DNA of 28,003 nt from a virus. Shown piece after piece: positions 2,839-11,213 of the stretch (the first letter of the stretch is position 1; every line of letters starts with the position of its first letter). The translations under genes and the position numbers were made by a program. Under the pieces are notes generated by a model, which was given only the letters and a program-made list of their open reading frames with translations, ran no database searches and had not been told where the DNA came from. The stretch spans positions 1 to 28,003 of IMG/VR virus record IMGVR_UViG_3300037963_000959. One strand, written 5' to 3'.

Positions 2839-3004
2839 AGACATAGACACATCTCAGCCGGGCTTGATAAATATTGATAATGAGCAGTATTTTGTAGATG
2901 GTGAAGTTGCTAAGTTTATTCTTGAATTGCTAGAAGAAGTAGATTCGTATAAAGAACAATTGAGCTTATTACAAAACGTTACAGGGGAACATGGGGAAAG
3001 CTGA
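2780..3004 (+). CDS. Short coiled-coil protein between terminase genes, DUF6447-like layout
   Basis: 74 residues from the ATG at 2780; a TTG at 2765 would add five. The first 20 residues overlap the end of the small terminase gene in another frame, and the last 14 bases overlap the large terminase gene. The core, LINIDNEQYFVDG followed by an acidic amphipathic helix VAKFILELLEEVDSYKEQLSLLQN, has a beta-hairpin-plus-coiled-coil layout like DUF6447-type phage proteins. A gene starting with the same INLDG-YIIED style opens at the right edge of the window. Function is unknown. The overlaps on both sides and a plausible protein pattern make it real in my view, but the exact start is uncertain. Confidence 0.6.
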   Translation: MAQKIIETKKFTHHQESKSKDIDTSQPGLINIDNEQYFVDGEVAKFILELLEEVDSYKEQLSLLQNVTGEHGES

Positions 3005-4631
3005 TACAAAACAATCTATGCTAGAAGCAATGTATTTAGATATATTTACATTTGCTGAAGTATTGTTTGGAGACCCTGATAACTCTATGCATTATCATTG
3101 TAGGTCTAAATCACCTGATTTTCATAGAGAAATAGCAAAAACCCTAATTGACATGGATAGCGGAGATAAGCTAGCTGTTGTAGCGCCTAGAGACCATGCT
3201 AAGTCTACCTTTATAAATTTAATATATCCTTTACATAGAATACTTTTTGGTGAAGAAAGGTTTCTCTTGTTGATTTCAGAATCTGAAATGCAGTCAAAGT
3301 ATAACCTAGAAGCAATTGGTAACGAGATTGAATTTAATCCTAAGATAAAATACTTCTTTGGAGATAGAAAAGGCCCGATATGGGGTAAGGAAGAAAAAGA
3401 AATAGTAGGCGGTATAGATGAAAATGGCAGGCCAAATGTTATGTGTAAGTGCCTTATACGTGGTACAGGACAAAAAGTTCGTGGTTTAAAGTATGGTGCA
3501 TATCGTCCAACTCTAACAATAATTGACGATGGGGAAGGCGAGTCAAATAGCACTACCCCTACTGCAAGGGATAAATTTAGAAGATGGCTTAATGCCGCAG
3601 TTATTCCGGGTAGTGGAGATGCAAAGCTTGTATTTATAGGTACAATTGTAGATACAGATGCATACTTAAACAGAATTGCTGGCCCGCTAGCATATGATAA
3701 AGAAGGTAATTATAAGGTCAAGGGTTGGAAGTCTTTATTTTTTCAGGCAGTCCCACAGGATTTGCCTCATGGAAAGTTTGCAACCTCAGGCAATGAGTTT
3801 ACAGATAAGAAAGGTAATGTAAAGGTATTGTGGCCCGATAGAAGACCTTACTCATGGCTTATGGGAGAGAAAGAAAGATTGAAGTCCGAAGGAGATATAG
3901 CATATTTTTACCAAGAGTATCAAAACATTCCGGTTGATGACAGCTTTCGTATATTCAAACAAAAAGATATGCGTTACTGGGAAGGCCGTTATATGTATGA
4001 AAAAGACCAAAGTTTTATTATGAGAACTGATGAAGGCAGAAGAGTTCAGTTACCAGTAAATATTTTTTTAGGAGTTGACCCAGCATCAAGCGAAAATGTA
4101 AAAGCTGACTATACTGTTATTATGGTTATAGCTGTAGATAAGGAATATAATATATATGTTCTTGACTATTTTAGAGGTCAAGTTGCTCCTATGGATGGAG
4201 CAGACAAGTTATTTGAGCTAGCAGATATGTATCATCCAAGAGATATAAAAATTGAAGAGACTGGTCATGTTATGCTAGCAGATTATGTTAGAAGACACTC
4301 AAAGGAAACTGGAAGGTTTTATAATATAAACACAAGAAAGGCTATAAAGGCTAAGTATTACCGAATAAAGCAAATGCAACCGCATTTTGCATCTCATTCT
4401 GTATTTCTAAAAGAAAGCCATGAAGAGCTAGAAACAGAGTTGCTAAACTTTAAAGAGCATGGTACGTTTAAAAAAGATACGCTAGATGCACTTCGTTGGG
4501 CTATTGATGATATATGGGCTCCTGACGTAGAACAGAATAAAGATGGAGACTGGATGGCTCCACCTCCAATAGTTGAAGTTGACTGGGAGACTGGTCAAAT
4601 GTTTAGCGCAGCAGATTTTGTTGAAGCATAG
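2991..4631 (+). CDS. terL: Terminase large subunit
   Basis: 546 residues, a normal length for the family. It is the packaging motor ATPase with a C-terminal nuclease that cuts concatemeric DNA. The ATPase half has the atypical Walker A APRDHAKST (65-73), a Walker B strand TLTIIDD (174-180) and a coupling-type segment VFIGTIVDTDAY (214-224). The nuclease half shows FLGVDPASS with Asp363, IKIEETG with Glu422/423 and the KKDTLDALRWA region with Asp496/499, the expected acidic metal ligands of the RNase H-like fold. The ATG at 2991 follows AGGGGA and lies inside the end of the previous gene. The stop overlaps the next gene by one base. Confidence 0.95.
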   Translation: MGKADTKQSMLEAMYLDIFTFAEVLFGDPDNSMHYHCRSKSPDFHREIAKTLIDMDSGDKLAVVAPRDHAKSTFINLIYPLHRILFGEERFLLLISESEMQSKYNLEAIGNEIEFNPKIKYFFGDRKGPIWGKEEKEIVGGIDENGRPNVMCKCLIRGTGQKVRGLKYGAYRPTLTIIDDGEGESNSTTPTARDKFRRWLNAAVIPGSGDAKLVFIGTIVDTDAYLNRIAGPLAYDKEGNYKVKGWKSLFFQAVPQDLPHGKFATSGNEFTDKKGNVKVLWPDRRPYSWLMGEKERLKSEGDIAYFYQEYQNIPVDDSFRIFKQKDMRYWEGRYMYEKDQSFIMRTDEGRRVQLPVNIFLGVDPASSENVKADYTVIMVIAVDKEYNIYVLDYFRGQVAPMDGADKLFELADMYHPRDIKIEETGHVMLADYVRRHSKETGRFYNINTRKAIKAKYYRIKQMQPHFASHSVFLKESHEELETELLNFKEHGTFKKDTLDALRWAIDDIWAPDVEQNKDGDWMAPPPIVEVDWETGQMFSAADFVEA

Positions 4632-5049: not shown

Positions 5050-7056
5050 ATGTTAGACTTACGTAAGCTAGAAACAAAAGAAATTTCGGCGGAAGAGGTA
5101 AGGTCGGACTATTTATTGTTCGAAAGCTCTTCTAGCGAATATCGTTATCAAATGGCGGAAGACCATGAGTTTTATTTAGGTTCTCAACTTACAAGGTCTC
5201 AAAAGAATTACTTGCTCAGTGTGGGTCAGCCCCCCGAAGCTAACAACAAAATACGTCCCGCCGTCGAGCAGGTTTTAGCGAATATCGCCGCATCTGCTCC
5301 TGAATGGGATGTTCACGCTGTGGGCAAAACAGACAATGATGCGGCGTTCGTCTTTGACCAACTACTTGATAAAATATGGTACGAATCTGATGCGGATGTA
5401 CATTTTAGGCAGGCTTGTAAAGATTTTATTGTTAAGGGTATAGCTTATATGTACATATATCCTGACTACCAAGGAGATGGTGGACTTGGAACAATCAAAG
5501 TAAAAAGAATGCCACCTGAGTCTATATTTGTTGACCCAAACAGTTCTTTACCAGATTTTTCAGATGCTAGCGCAATTATATACTCTGATTTGCATACAAA
5601 AGAACATTTAAAAATTTTATTTCCACAATATGCAAAACAAATAGACGATGCCAAAGAAGACCACTACAGAAACGAACAAAGTTCTGGTAAATACTCAAGA
5701 GATTTTATTGAAACAAAAGGCAATGGCGTATTAGACCATCAAAGTAGAGTAAGGAAATATTGTTATTTTGTAAAAGTAAATGTACCTCATGCTCTTATTC
5801 TAGATACAAATACTGGTAGAACTCAAACTTATACTAGGGATGAGTATAAAGAACTTGTAAAAGATGACCAGTACGAAGAATTTATTAAGCAAGGAATTAT
5901 TACAGAGCAACTTGTTTACAAAACAAGAGTCAGGGAAGTATTTGTTGTCGGAGATACTGTTTTATACGATGAAATACTACCTATCTCTGAATACCCTATA
6001 GCTGTTGCCTGTAACGAACACGCTGGAACACCATATCCAAGTGGAGATGTTCGCCATGCAAAGACTCCTCAGAGAATGTTAAATAGAACTGAGGCTTTAA
6101 TTATATCTCATACTAATGCTACTACTAATTTTAAGCTACTGTATGAAGATGGTGCTATAGATGCTAGCGAAATACAAAAGTGGCATATACCAAATGCTAT
6201 AATAAGAGCTAACCCCGGAGCATTGGCATCTGGTAAAATAAAAGAATTTGCTCCACCAGCAGTATCATCAAGTTTATACGCAGAAAAAGGCAGATACGAG
6301 GTTGATATAGAAACAGTTTTTGGCGCTTATAAGTTTCTTCAAGGAAACGCTCAAGGCGCACCCGGTACTGTTGGTGAGGCGCAAATAATGGATGAATCAT
6401 CATCAAGAAAACAAAATTGGAAAATATTGCCTATATATGATATGCTTACAAGAACTGCAAAGGTTGTTACTCAATGGATGCCTAATGTTTATGACCAACA
6501 GAGAACATTAAGAATTGTAAGCCCCACAGGCGATGAGAATGAAGTAAGATTAAATATTCCTGTTATTGATGACAAAACAGGTGCAGTTAAGAAATTATAT
6601 GATATGGAAACGGCTAGATTTGATGTTAGAGTTGTAGTCGGTTCTACTAGAAGTAAGTCGCCAATGGCTGAACTTCAAAAAGATTTAACTCTTCTGAGTG
6701 CTGGTATTTATGATAAAACTCAAGTTATTATGAATATGAAAGGCGATATTGATAAAGCATCGCTTATGCAAAGAATGGGAGAGATAGGAAACTTACAAGC
6801 GCAATTGCAACAAGCGCAACAAGAACTCAAAAGAATGCAAGGTGACTTGCAAACTAGAGAGCGTGAAGTATTTCATGCTAACATGAGAGCTGAAATTAGC
6901 GAGGCTACCAAACCTGTAAGTGAGGCAGTAAGCAAAATCAAATCAAATGCTAAGCTGGAAGAAGCGCGACAAAGAGATAGGACTCGCATGGTCGGTGAAG
7001 AACTATCTATTGCAAAACAAACGATTAACTCAGAACCAAAAGCTCCGCAAGCATAG
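5050..7056 (+). CDS. Portal protein (P22-type)
   Basis: 668 residues, in the usual range for P22-like portals, which form the dodecameric DNA channel at one capsid vertex. Visible features are an N-terminal helical part with YLGSQLTRSQK and PPEANNKIRPAVEQVLANIAA (about 60-84), KGIAYMYIYPDY (about 129-140), and PPESIFVDPNSSL (about 154-167), where portals of this type keep an Asp-Pro. A C-terminal Gln-rich coiled coil (about 573-645) could form the barrel or crown. There is no Shine-Dalgarno before the ATG at 5050, which follows a 38-base gap. An unusual initiation mode is possible. The next gene is the scaffold, as expected. The identification rests on overall pattern and position rather than a single motif. 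Confidence 0.88.
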   Translation: MLDLRKLETKEISAEEVRSDYLLFESSSSEYRYQMAEDHEFYLGSQLTRSQKNYLLSVGQPPEANNKIRPAVEQVLANIAASAPEWDVHAVGKTDNDAAFVFDQLLDKIWYESDADVHFRQACKDFIVKGIAYMYIYPDYQGDGGLGTIKVKRMPPESIFVDPNSSLPDFSDASAIIYSDLHTKEHLKILFPQYAKQIDDAKEDHYRNEQSSGKYSRDFIETKGNGVLDHQSRVRKYCYFVKVNVPHALILDTNTGRTQTYTRDEYKELVKDDQYEEFIKQGIITEQLVYKTRVREVFVVGDTVLYDEILPISEYPIAVACNEHAGTPYPSGDVRHAKTPQRMLNRTEALIISHTNATTNFKLLYEDGAIDASEIQKWHIPNAIIRANPGALASGKIKEFAPPAVSSSLYAEKGRYEVDIETVFGAYKFLQGNAQGAPGTVGEAQIMDESSSRKQNWKILPIYDMLTRTAKVVTQWMPNVYDQQRTLRIVSPTGDENEVRLNIPVIDDKTGAVKKLYDMETARFDVRVVVGSTRSKSPMAELQKDLTLLSAGIYDKTQVIMNMKGDIDKASLMQRMGEIGNLQAQLQQAQQELKRMQGDLQTREREVFHANMRAEISEATKPVSEAVSKIKSNAKLEEARQRDRTRMVGEELSIAKQTINSEPKAPQA

Positions 7057-7079: not shown

Positions 7080-7970
7080 ATGACAAATGAAGACCAAAAC
7101 AATCAGGAAGAAGTAATGAACGAAGATAACCTTTTAGCTGAACTTGATGAGTTCAACTCAGGCTCTTCACCGGAACCAGAGGTTGAAGAACCTCAGGAAG
7201 AAGAAGTTCTAGAAACTCAACCTGATGAGAATAATGACAATGAAGAACCAAATGAGCAATCTCAAGTTGAGCAATGGTTAATTGAGAATAAATTCGCAAA
7301 TGATGAGGAAGGAGTTCAGAAACTCGCTGACGCATATAAACAACTTCAATCGAAGTCCGATAAAGATAGAAATGAATGGGCTAATGAGAAGGGTAAGTAT
7401 GAAAAGCTAGCGCAGTTAGATGAATTTCTTTCGAATAATCCAGATGTAGTTCAAAAGCTGACAGAGTCAGTTCAAGAAAAACAAAAGGACATGAATGCAC
7501 CGCCTGTTAAGCCAGATGATTATGATATTCTCGATGAAAGCATTGAAAACTCTAGCTCCGCAAAATGGAGAGCAGAGCATGACAAATGGCTTATAAGTCA
7601 GGGCGCTACTCAAGCCATGCTGGAAGTTGAAAAGTTGAAGTCTGAGCTTAGTCAGTCTCAGGCATTTGACGCAGAGACTATAGAGTTACAGAAAATGGGG
7701 TTAAGCGATACAGATATTGTTGAATATAGACAATTTATGGCTGACCCAAATAATGTATCTCAGGAGAACTTAGTTGAGATTTGGAAAACGTTGTCAAACA
7801 AAGGGAATAATTCCAAACCAGAAGTAGCTCAACAGGCTCCAAAGGTGAAAAACAAGCAGAATAGCGCGGCCTCTGTAAGTGGTAACGCTCCTCAAGCTAT
7901 TGAACCTGAAGAAAAAGCAGTTGATGATTTTTGGAAAGGAATTATGGAATTTAATAATACAAATACGTAG
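7080..7970 (+). CDS. Scaffolding protein (probable)
   Basis: 296 residues between portal and MCP, the standard place for a scaffold. The first 65 residues are strongly acidic with Glu/Asp/Gln runs. The middle is helical and charged (KLADAYKQLQSKSDKDRNEWANEKGKYEK and a second helix around 175-195). Near the end a Lys-containing linker leads to a short amphipathic tail VDDFWKGIMEF. Scaffolds bind the inside of the capsid shell through a short C-terminal element and leave before or during packaging. There is no domain with catalytic residues. A clear AAGGAG precedes the ATG at 7080 by about eight bases. The call rests on composition and position, since scaffolds share little sequence. Confidence 0.8.
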   Translation: MTNEDQNNQEEVMNEDNLLAELDEFNSGSSPEPEVEEPQEEEVLETQPDENNDNEEPNEQSQVEQWLIENKFANDEEGVQKLADAYKQLQSKSDKDRNEWANEKGKYEKLAQLDEFLSNNPDVVQKLTESVQEKQKDMNAPPVKPDDYDILDESIENSSSAKWRAEHDKWLISQGATQAMLEVEKLKSELSQSQAFDAETIELQKMGLSDTDIVEYRQFMADPNNVSQENLVEIWKTLSNKGNNSKPEVAQQAPKVKNKQNSAASVSGNAPQAIEPEEKAVDDFWKGIMEFNNTNT

Positions 7971-8023: not shown

Positions 8024-9469
8024 ATGTCTACAACAAGTTATGGTGCTGGAACTGCGTTACAATTCTCAGACGGGTCTCAAAGACAGGTCTTAGAATTAGG
8101 TGACAAAATCCACTACTACAATCCAAATGTTACTCCCATTTTCTCACTTTTTGGGCAACAGTCAGTTTTGACTCCAGTCCCTATTTTCGAGTGGATGGAA
8201 GACGAGTACATGATTAAAAAAAGCGAGAAGTTTAATATAACTTCTTCAGATGTTGCTGATACAGCAACAGGTGGCGCAAATGGCTTAAAGTCTATTCTTA
8301 TTGCAGAAAGACAAGCGCAAATGGAAATGTTTGAAGTTGGCGGTATATATTCTTTTAGCGTTGCTGGTGGAAGTGCTGCTGTTGAAACTGGTGCAGACCA
8401 TTTAATTTGTATTGCAGTTGGTAAAGATGTTGACCATGCTAGCGCAACAGATAAAATGGTTCAGTTTATTGGAGCACACGCTCATGGAAGTCTAGATGCT
8501 TATTTAGTAGAAAAGTCTGCAAGTGCTTTGATAACAGCAGACGCTGCTGGCGTGCTGACATTAAGCTATGTTGCAAATGCTGGTCAATTCTATGATGCTG
8601 GAACTGCAACAGGATATTACGGATACAACATTAAAGGTAATTTTACTTTAGCAGATATTACTGATAATGATTACTTTGATAGAGAAAATGGAGTATCTGG
8701 AATTGCTGAAGGTTCTGCTGTTGGTATTGAGACTCGTAAAAAAGTACGTAGGTTGAAAAACTGTACGCAAATTTTTCGCGAGCCATACACAATAACCAAC
8801 ACTGCAAAGGTGTCACAACAGTATGGTGGCCCTGAGCTTTCAAGGTTGCAAGCTAGAAAACTAGCTAAGATTAAGGGCGATATTGAGTGGGCAATGCTTA
8901 CTAATGGAGCCATTTCTCTTGATGCTAGCTCTGAAAATCCAAAAAGAACATTTCAAGGAATAGGTCTTGGAACTTCTAATGGTTCTATTTCATCTTTGAA
9001 TGGATTTGACAACACAAATCTGCAATTAAACTACTCTAGTGGTGATTTAAATGCTATGGATTCAGTTGTTGAATTTATATTCTCAGATATGGTAGCAGGT
9101 AGCATGAGAAAAACAGTTTTTGCATCAAATAAGTGGATGGTTAAGTTAGCATCCATGACAAGAGGTGCAGATACTGGATTCTATGATTCTGGTGAAGAAA
9201 CCAAGGGTGGATTAAGAGTTCGTTCTTATCTCGGCCCTGTTGGTGAACTTGACTTTGTGTCTCATCCTTATCTAAAAGGCGCATATGAAGATTATGCAAT
9301 TGCGATTGACCCTGCGAACTTTTCAGTTCGTCCTTTGGCTGGTCGCGATATGCAACTTCGTAAAGACATCGTTCAGGATGGCCGTGATGGTCAAACTGAC
9401 GAATGGCTAATGGAAGTTGGTATGGAAGTTCGTAACGAACAAACCCATGCTGTTCTAAAGCTGGTCTAA
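8024..9469 (+). CDS. Major capsid protein
   Basis: 481 residues with a very strong Shine-Dalgarno (GGAGGT, 8012-8017), as expected for the most abundant virion protein. The N-terminal part (YYNPNVTPIFSLFGQ, then FEWMEDEYM) and the middle (RRLKNCTQIFREPYTITNTA, then KIKGDIEWAMLTNGA) resemble the SU10/DUF5309 type of HK97-fold capsid proteins. A Gly/Ala-rich stretch at about 105-205 looks like an inserted domain. The C-terminal part (VRSYLGPVGELDFVSHPYLKG, DPANFSVRPLAGRD) fits the A-domain and last strands. The scaffold gene precedes it and a structured RNA follows it. The first 26 residues are echoed in the small gene at 9519. The family assignment is from memory. Confidence 0.88.
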   Translation: MSTTSYGAGTALQFSDGSQRQVLELGDKIHYYNPNVTPIFSLFGQQSVLTPVPIFEWMEDEYMIKKSEKFNITSSDVADTATGGANGLKSILIAERQAQMEMFEVGGIYSFSVAGGSAAVETGADHLICIAVGKDVDHASATDKMVQFIGAHAHGSLDAYLVEKSASALITADAAGVLTLSYVANAGQFYDAGTATGYYGYNIKGNFTLADITDNDYFDRENGVSGIAEGSAVGIETRKKVRRLKNCTQIFREPYTITNTAKVSQQYGGPELSRLQARKLAKIKGDIEWAMLTNGAISLDASSENPKRTFQGIGLGTSNGSISSLNGFDNTNLQLNYSSGDLNAMDSVVEFIFSDMVAGSMRKTVFASNKWMVKLASMTRGADTGFYDSGEETKGGLRVRSYLGPVGELDFVSHPYLKGAYEDYAIAIDPANFSVRPLAGRDMQLRKDIVQDGRDGQTDEWLMEVGMEVRNEQTHAVLKLV

Positions 9470-9515
9470 ACCTAATAATCGTTTGGGGGCGGGCAACCGC
9501 CCTCAAATAGGTTTA
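9467..9515 (+). other. Two-tier hairpin after the MCP gene (GCAA tetraloop)
   Basis: An inner stem of 11 pairs joins 9482-9492 (TTTGGGGGCGG) to 9497-9507 (CCGCCCTCAAA), with one G-U and a GCAA loop of the stable GNRA type. An outer stem of eight perfect pairs joins 9467-9474 (TAAACCTA, starting at the MCP stop) to 9508-9515 (TAGGTTTA), leaving a seven-base bulge on the 5' side. There is no run of U after the stem, so termination would be partial at best. It may protect the 3' end of MCP mRNA, reduce read-through or control translation of the gene at 9519, whose start is only three bases beyond the structure. Confidence 0.75.
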
Positions 9516-9518
9516 AGA

Positions 9519-9671
9519 ATGAAAGAAATAACATACGGAACTGGAGCAACAAATTTTAGCGATGGTACATCAAGGTTGATGACCACGTTAGGAACTAAAA
9601 AATCTCGTATTCGTAAAAAACGTAAAAAGAGAAAGAAAAATGCGATACCAAGAAGCATACGAACTTATTGA
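9519..9671 (+). CDS. Small basic protein with an MCP-like N-terminal arm
   Basis: 50 residues from the ATG at 9519. An upstream in-frame TTG at 9483 lies inside the hairpin and is rejected. Residues 6-25 (YGTGATNFSDGTSRLMTTLG) line up with MCP residues 6-26 (YGAGTALQFSDGSQRQVLELG), with about ten identities and one gap. The second half is a basic tail with TKKSRIRKKRKKRKK. The end overlaps the connector gene by 32 bases. No close database family comes to mind. The arrangement suggests a partial copy of the capsid N-arm joined to a nucleic-acid-binding tail. It could be a minor capsid or internal protein, or a leader peptide for the downstream gene. Function is inferred only. Confidence 0.6.
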   Translation: MKEITYGTGATNFSDGTSRLMTTLGTKKSRIRKKRKKRKKNAIPRSIRTY

Positions 9672-10560
9672 TGCTGGGGTTATAGCTGGTGGAATAGAAC
9701 TGCCTGTGTCTCATAACTTAATTGAGATATACTTTGACCAAGCAATAAAAGAAATCGCAATGAGGGCGGTTCGTAAAAAAGACTCACAAACATTTACTGC
9801 TAGCGGTAAAGAGTATATTTTTACAAAAGCAAATTACTCTGGGCAAATATATAAGGTAGAGCTAGACCAGACAGATGTTCCTTTTGTAGATGAATCAGCA
9901 ATCATATCTAATGTAGATGATGATGAAGTATCTAAAATTGGTTATTATATCAAAACAGATGTTTCAAATGGGTCTATAACAGGCGTGACAGGAGCAAGCC
10001 CAACTGTAGTAACGTCTACTTCTCATGGACTAGCAACTGGCGACTTTGTTATATTTAGCGAAATTAAAGGTCACTATGTAACCGCTAGTAAAGTTTCTCA
10101 CTTAAATAGTAAGCGACTAGCCATAACAAAAGTTGATGATAATAGTTTTTCTGTAGCCGTTGATTCTTCAGGTGGCGGTACAACAGCATATTCAAGTGGT
10201 GGCGCATGGCAACAAGACACACACAAGCTTTATTTAACTAAAAATCCTAGCTCAGATAATGGCCTTAGAGTTTATTATTATGCTAGCCCAGAAGAAAAAA
10301 CTAGCTTATCAAGTAGGGTTGACCTTCCTCAACAACTAATTCCAGCAGCAATACATTGCACTTTGGGTCATTTTTTAAATCTTGGAGGAAATCTTCAAGT
10401 TGGTAGCGGGCATATGGGATTAGCAAGAAAGATAGAGCAAGACTACATGGAAACATCACGCGCAAAAGAACCTATGCCTCATTTGATTCCAAATCCAATG
10501 CAGGTATTTGTAACTACAAGAAATGGTTCTATTGAAAATACTACAGGAGCAGATGACTAA
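9640..10560 (+). CDS. Head-tail connector/adaptor protein with an FCCH-like insert
   Basis: 306 residues. The N-terminal 45 (YQEAYELIDAGV...LIEIYFDQAIKEIAMRA) and the C-terminal part from about 225 (LPQQLIPAAIHCTLGHFLNLGG...ARKIEQDYMETSRA) are helical. This is the pattern of adaptor proteins that dock under the portal. Between them, at about 110-190, lies a beta domain reading SITGVTGASPTVVTSTSHGL...GDFVIFSEIKG...AYSSGGAW. That is typical of the E1-FCCH-like modules often inserted into phage virion proteins. The ATG at 9640 lies inside the previous small gene; the AG-rich stretch before it (AGAAAGAAAA) could act as a weak ribosome site. The stop overlaps the next ATG by one base. The assignment comes from fold-like pattern and order. 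Confidence 0.7.
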   Translation: MRYQEAYELIDAGVIAGGIELPVSHNLIEIYFDQAIKEIAMRAVRKKDSQTFTASGKEYIFTKANYSGQIYKVELDQTDVPFVDESAIISNVDDDEVSKIGYYIKTDVSNGSITGVTGASPTVVTSTSHGLATGDFVIFSEIKGHYVTASKVSHLNSKRLAITKVDDNSFSVAVDSSGGGTTAYSSGGAWQQDTHKLYLTKNPSSDNGLRVYYYASPEEKTSLSSRVDLPQQLIPAAIHCTLGHFLNLGGNLQVGSGHMGLARKIEQDYMETSRAKEPMPHLIPNPMQVFVTTRNGSIENTTGADD

Positions 10561-11213
10561 TGGCTACTTTTCAAGTAAGAATAGAAGATATAATAGGAGC
10601 TACTGCAAGTCTTGGCAGTGATGACGCGACAGCAAATCAACAGGCCATTCAAGATGCTTTACAAGATACAGCAGTTGACATAATTAATAAAGTAAGCCCT
10701 GACATCTTAATACAGTATGCAACAAAGTCTTCTAATGTGACCTCAAATCCAATTGCTAGCAACATTGAAAACAGCAAGATAGTATTGGTTGAAAGAAGAG
10801 AGTCTGATGATACCACTGATTTATATGTTTCCTGTGTTTATGCAGATGCATCATTACAAGGAAAAATTCAAAATCCTCACAGTATATTTTTTGCAACAGA
10901 CGAATCTCCAAGGTGGACTTTTAATGATAATGATGTTTATGTATATCCTGAGCCGGCAGGCGCAAATCCAAGTAGATATTATTCTATGGAAAATCCGACA
11001 ATTGAACATGGCGATAGTTCTGTTGCTAAGTTTCCAAACGAGCTAGAACACGCATTGGTTTTAGGTGCTAGCGCAAGACTTAAGCAGAGACAAATTACTT
11101 TTTTTAATGAAGATGAAGATAGTGAAGTTGTAATTTTACATAGAAGTCAGTATCAAGAGCTGTTGGTAGAATATGCAAATGCGCTAGCTCCATATATGCC
11201 ATCAAGTAAATAA
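10560..11213 (+). CDS. Second connector/head-closure type structural protein
   Basis: 217 residues, starting within the previous stop (TAATG) with an AGGAG about a dozen bases upstream. N-terminal residues 20-60 are helical (NQQAIQDALQDTAVDIINKV). The middle is beta-rich (SKIVLVERRE, TDLYVSCVYAD, SPRWTFNDNDVYVYPEP). The last 60 residues are helical and charged (FPNELEHALVLGASARLKQRQ...YQELLVEYANAL). This helix-beta-helix plan and the place between adaptor and nozzle suggest a head-completion or adaptor protein. No named family can be given with certainty. Its stop again overlaps the next start by one base, so stoichiometry with the neighbours is probably set by coupling. Confidence 0.6.
   Translation: MATFQVRIEDIIGATASLGSDDATANQQAIQDALQDTAVDIINKVSPDILIQYATKSSNVTSNPIASNIENSKIVLVERRESDDTTDLYVSCVYADASLQGKIQNPHSIFFATDESPRWTFNDNDVYVYPEPAGANPSRYYSMENPTIEHGDSSVAKFPNELEHALVLGASARLKQRQITFFNEDEDSEVVILHRSQYQELLVEYANALAPYMPSSK

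Follow-up and report, generated by a model that had tools for sequence, protein, structure and literature searches.

Why would a phage encode, directly behind its major capsid protein (MCP), a basic protein of only 50 residues that begins in the same way as the capsid protein itself? This question, which concerns a set of marine phages so far uncultured, is raised by the IMG/VR virus record IMGVR_UViG_3300037963_000959, which has 43,280 bases and of which the first 28 kb (28,003 nucleotides) form the window analysed here. The small gene starts with an ATG at 9519, ends with its stop at 9671 and encodes the product MKEITYGTGATNFSDGTSRLMTTLGTKKSRIRKKRKKRKKNAIPRSIRTY. An earlier note on this DNA had aligned the N-termini of the two proteins with about ten identities and one gap, starting at residue 6 in both, and had described a Lys/Arg tail behind the arm. 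Our comparison confirmed these observations and made them stronger than first stated, whereas the interpretation given to them is partly supported.

The arm shared by the small protein and the capsid protein

When MCP residues 6-26 are aligned with residues 6-25 of the small protein, 11 residues are identical (Y-G-x-G, A, F-S-D-G, R, L-G) with a single gap, and the motif does begin at residue 6 in each protein. The tail that follows contains 14 Lys/Arg and no acidic residue. When the arm of the small protein was shuffled, none of 20,000 shuffles scored as high as the actual sequence. A set of 1,844 N-termini was taken from six-frame open reading frames (ORFs) of the loci; in this set close scores came only from MCPs and from members of the small-protein family, with 30 for the best unrelated N-terminus against 47. 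On the basis of these two results, chance similarity is excluded.

A profile built from the small proteins only (A2) was searched through 33 whole virus records at E<=1. The 40 matches comprised 13 small genes and 27 starts of long frames of MCP size (387-532 codons), which were the MCP wherever coordinates were compared. Within the window's own 43 kb genome the profile matched twice, at the small gene (5e-23) and at MCP residues 1-24 (0.001). In these whole-record profile searches the arm motif was confined to the small protein and the MCP, with no third protein carrying it, and a targeting tag for multiple cargoes was rejected for this reason. The direct comparison of the two family profiles by hhalign gave an E-value of 5.3e-6, which refers to a single comparison and not to a database search, and 46% identity over columns 1-24 only. 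As the match ends at about residue 25, the earlier statement that nothing but the arm is shared is exact.

The arm is among the most conserved stretches of a divergent capsid protein. In 18 diverse MCPs the residues Y6, G7, G9, T10, Q13, F14, Q19, R20, Q21, L23, E24, L25 and G26 are invariant. The residues common to the small protein and the MCP are the invariant ones in each family (Y, G, G, F, D, R, L), with the fixed spacing F-x-D-x3-R-x4-L. Such strong conservation is expected of a contact element, and the N-arm serves as one in HK97-type capsids; an example is the N-arm of the P22 MCP, which carries scaffold-binding residues and at maturation changes from a helix to a loop reaching the neighbouring subunit (PMC9965877). 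Capsid structures exist for SU10 and for phage VP1.

Family copies of the small protein are 36-54 aa long and consist of an arm of about 24 residues followed by the tail. In 41 distinct trimmed proteins the Lys/Arg fraction of the tail has a mean of 0.66 and is at least 0.48 in each, and all their tails together contain six acidic residues. The tail retains 10-15 Lys/Arg while its length and residue order drift, a pattern that is expected for electrostatic binding. The last 10 residues in the window (NAIPRSIRTY) are coded in the overlap with the next gene, which starts at 9640, and are absent from many relatives. Small, highly basic and with few acidic residues, the protein has the composition of a DNA-condensing core peptide. 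An HK97-fold body is missing: in its 50 aa only residues 1-25 align to the MCP, and Pfam and PHROG gave no match. The family as a whole has no match in Pfam, NCBIfam or PHROG, tblastn against 50,697 phage records found nothing, and none of four annotated phage records tested carries it. Annotated relatives of the MCP are only distant (about 25% identity) and the annotated phage collection yielded no cultured member of this group. In the resources searched, the small-protein family is undescribed.

Distribution, selection and origin of the small gene

With three MCP queries, relatives were retrieved from more than 80 viral contigs, and the resulting MCP tree has 72 rows, some of them near-identical. 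Within a clade of 45 rows the small gene is located 3' of the MCP gene in 40, and the other five contigs end before that position. A recognisable homologue occupies a different site, upstream of the terminase large subunit gene (terL), in a further clade of 9 rows (support 100/100) and in the lone lineage L148. Of the seven rows with such a copy, three have it overlapping or directly adjoining the terL start, and in the other four it is situated about 157-159 bases upstream. The adjacency to the MCP gene emphasised in the earlier note is not essential, since other clades keep the gene at this second site; it always stays inside the head and packaging block. Seven loci have other genes inserted after the MCP gene, and the small gene is still present there, 0.5-0.7 kb downstream. 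In L012, L019, L024, L032 and L058 a gene (MAESYKDSLRINNNNQGVDSTLRTVVSGDGDTTGL...) is inserted between the two, which is possibly a decoration protein gene.

Other short Lys-rich ORFs, for example MASKIMKKMAKKISTKKKKIKKKAKKKVIRKIKY, were seen after the MCP gene in L190, L186, L066, L183, L192 and L211, where the small gene was not found. They occur within one clade in most of the eight rows lacking the gene (see below) and are perhaps arm-less substitutes.

Across the family the arm has a median dN of about 0.24, a dS of about 1.0 and a dN/dS of about 0.25, with third codon positions being the most variable. The arm is under purifying selection, and the small gene is a real, selected gene that is linked to head genes. 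The earlier note had named two outcomes that would point to chance similarity or to an unexpressed reading frame, namely that no related phage keeps the gene or that the shared residues vanish in homologues. Neither outcome occurred: the gene persists in related phages, and in both families the shared residues belong to the best-conserved positions. The shortness of the protein and its lack of a match in family libraries could still be taken in favour of such an artefact; the conservation over more than 40 loci, the dN/dS, the third-position variation, the profile search and the shuffles refute it, and we regard it as practically eliminated.

At residues identical between the small protein and its own MCP, the codons agree in 31%, which is below or near the level expected by chance from codon usage. 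Moreover, the small protein is no closer to its own MCP than to those of other phages (49.5 vs 49.1). Taken together, these values argue against recent copying and ongoing gene conversion, and both were rejected. The partial duplication suggested previously is plausible, and an ancient event would be the simplest account of the arm; it must be old, and a recent copy does not stand. Convergence on one common receptor or binding site is also possible.

In the collection of bacterial and archaeal genomes the MCP has only two relatives (L252, L253), and both are contigs of Candidatus Marinimicrobia (Fidelibacterota) assemblies. This is a hint which suggests that the phage group infects SAR406 bacteria.

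The head block and the hairpin behind the capsid gene

Features of the block are compiled in Table 1. The MCP matched Pfam PF17236 (SU10_MCP) over residues 19-479 with an E-value of 1.6e-37 and 130.1 bits (curated cut-off 24.1), which places it among the SU10-type capsid proteins, and it also matched PHROG 1328, major head protein. The acidic protein encoded 5' of the MCP has no family match in Pfam or PHROG. The order of portal, this protein and MCP is retained in relatives, and according to its sequence the putative scaffold is acidic close to its N-terminus. It is a possible candidate for the partner that binds the arm. On the 3' side, the gene at 9640..10560 is a conserved neighbour; in most relatives it directly adjoins the small gene or shares bases with it. 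Its match to Pfam E1_FCCH (E 1.1e-7) is probably a beta-barrel insertion common to tail proteins.

Table 1. Features of the head block in the window
Feature	Position	Strand	Basis or remark
Terminase large subunit	2991-4631		head block
Portal	5050-7056		head block
Acidic protein 5' of MCP, probably scaffold	7080..7970	+	position, composition
MCP, HK97-fold, SU10_MCP family, 481 aa	8024..9469	+	Pfam PF17236, PHROG 1328
MCP N-terminal arm, residues 1-26, MSTTSYGAGTALQFSDGSQRQVLELG (shared segment)	8024..8101	+	matched by small-protein profile
Hairpin at MCP 3' end, before small gene	9467..9515	+	12-pair core, GCAA loop, no U tract
Small basic protein, 50 aa, arm mimic (1-25) and Lys/Arg tail	9519..9671	+	conserved family alignments A1/A2
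Arm-like segment of small protein, residues 1-25, MKEITYGTGATNFSDGTSRLMTTLG	9519..9593	+	11 identities to MCP 6-26; hhalign
Polybasic tail of small protein	9594..9668	+	14 Lys/Arg, no Asp/Glu, counted from residue 25
Next gene, MRYQEAYELI..., adaptor/head-completion-like by position	9640..10560	+	start overlaps small gene
SU10-type adaptor candidate	10560-11213		26.3 bits, slightly below curated cut-off 27

A hairpin was obtained after the MCP stop in all relatives folded, whether or not they have the small gene, and its stem sequences differ between clades. As it is present irrespective of the small gene, it belongs to the MCP transcript and not to the small protein; a role as part of the small-gene system was rejected because it follows the MCP in all clades. 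The hairpin of the window was not called as a terminator and has no Rfam match. It looks like an MCP 3'-end element (mRNA processing or stability) rather than a classical terminator. In L163, L173, L191 and L038 the apical part of the hairpin holds an inserted stretch (cagagagcaatgcaatcg...), although these loci come from different MCP subclades.

A putative capsid-docked peptide and its alternatives

Which function could such a protein have? We infer that it is a capsid-docked, nucleic-acid-binding peptide whose arm docks at an arm-binding position and whose polycation holds DNA, thereby aiding packaging or condensation, and we give this reading a probability slightly below one half (about 0.47). 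Docking, an interior location, DNA binding and the role in packaging or condensation are all inferred. With its first 24 residues or so the peptide would mimic that part of the MCP N-terminal arm which is conserved and serves docking. This segment would occupy a site for MCP arms in the (pro)capsid. The site could be offered by an adjacent MCP, for instance where the resident arm of a lattice position has been displaced; alternatively, the segment might dock on a partner that binds MCP arms in assembly, for instance the scaffold. The Lys/Arg tail would line the inner face of the shell and bind DNA without sequence preference. In this position the peptide might help the prohead to engage the genome, as has been proposed for lambda gpFI, or neutralise packaged DNA in the manner of the core proteins of adenovirus. 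A separate peptide with the conserved residues of the MCP arm can be expected to bind where, or to what, that arm binds, and the attached polycation is most simply a binder of DNA or of polyanions in general. The location of the gene between MCP and adaptor or upstream of terL fits a role in DNA packaging.

Several observations weigh against this reading. In one clade the small proteins are devoid of YGxG though their own MCPs retain it. AlphaFold, run with few and similar sequences, gave no reliable arm for the small protein (pLDDT 54-67 over the first 25 residues) and no confident arm for the MCP (18 sequences, pLDDT about 24-31 over the first 50 residues). The small gene is absent from at least eight rows in which the sequence covers both positions, and it is therefore not universally needed. 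Furthermore, an HK97-type arm can relocate during maturation, so that the interior location is an assumption.

The combination of a capsid-binding segment with a basic body has precedents. Functionally, the nearest one is lambda gpFI, a capsid-bound and DNA-binding packaging chaperone whose gene sits directly after the MCP gene and which, to our knowledge, has no copy of the MCP arm. Unlike the small protein, gpFI is larger and folded, and no sequence or profile relation of the small protein to a gpFI-like chaperone was found in the Pfam, PHROG and NCBIfam searches. It has been proposed that gpFI binds the MCP lattice and DNA, so aiding the docking of terminase (PMC4856287). Anatomically, adenovirus pVII comes nearest, a core protein that is very basic, condenses DNA and has its N-terminal peptide in the same hexon pocket as a peptide of pVI (PMC8156859). 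Capsid and proteins are unrelated in that case, the site is shared with the partner pVI instead of the shell protein's own arm, and pVII is processed by a protease. The small protein CpmB of SaPI1 carries the capsid-binding motif (RIIK) of the 80alpha scaffolding protein and competes for its site (PMC5644958). There, the motif is derived from the scaffold, C-terminal and satellite-encoded, and a comparable polybasic tail is missing, whereas the motif of the small protein is common to the MCP and not to the putative scaffold. The internal proteins of T4 are brought into the head by a conserved N-terminal capsid targeting sequence (PMC3012670); the tag described here differs in resembling the MCP arm, and a second cargo was not found in the whole-record profile searches. 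A processing site was not identified either, though no search aimed at a prohead protease was made. As far as tested, none of gpFI, pVII and CpmB is a sequence relative of the small protein.

Besides the occupation of MCP arm sites and the delivery of nucleic acid to the shell, the earlier note had also considered an assembly regulator. At special places, of which the portal vertex and pentamers are examples, the arm mimic would then compete with MCP arms or vie for the partner of these arms, and tune nucleation, size or scaffold release, with the basic tail meeting the acidic scaffold and not DNA. CpmB and the 80alpha scaffold are an established case of competition by way of a common capsid-binding motif, in P22 basic scaffold residues pair with acidic residues of the N-arm (PMC9965877), and the putative scaffold has the acidic region mentioned above. 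A tail that keeps only its charge while sequence and length drift suits a non-specific polyanion like DNA better than a defined protein surface, however, and the alternative position upstream of terL points to packaging, so that we consider regulation unlikely.

Equally doubtful is the view that the small protein is not derived from the MCP at all and that each of the two has independently come to carry a short peptide which the same third protein recognises, in which case the capsid would not be the binding site of the small protein. The codon agreement and the equal similarity to own and other MCPs are in line with this, as is the one clade that keeps only the FxDGxxR...TL half of the motif; yet an old duplication would equally give saturated synonymous sites, and the shared span has the same starting residue and the same internal spacing save one constant indel. 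Very improbable is a role at the RNA level, with the arm binding nascent MCP and the tail binding the hairpin to exert feedback on MCP or adaptor expression. The strong hairpin between the two genes in the window invites this idea, but it follows the MCP also in relatives without the small gene and in those with the gene upstream of terL.

Returning to the capsid-docked peptide, we tentatively propose, with the odds somewhat against it, that in a phage lineage the docking arm of the lineage's own shell protein became a separate unit joined to a polycation, giving a dedicated adaptor that competes with or supplements MCP arms in the lattice and ties DNA to the shell. We know of no description of such capsid self-mimicry in tailed phages. 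The new element is the self-mimicking arm, as a capsid-docked basic peptide is in itself of a known kind. Annotation pipelines tend to omit tiny Lys-rich ORFs behind phage capsid genes, and for one of these many ORFs a candidate function is now available. If the arm docks in the lattice, it would be a natural, self-derived capsid tag, and 24 residues would be enough to bring cargo into an HK97-type head. The role of the MCP N-arm would then become directly testable, and a short targeting peptide would be at hand for loading cargo into capsids.
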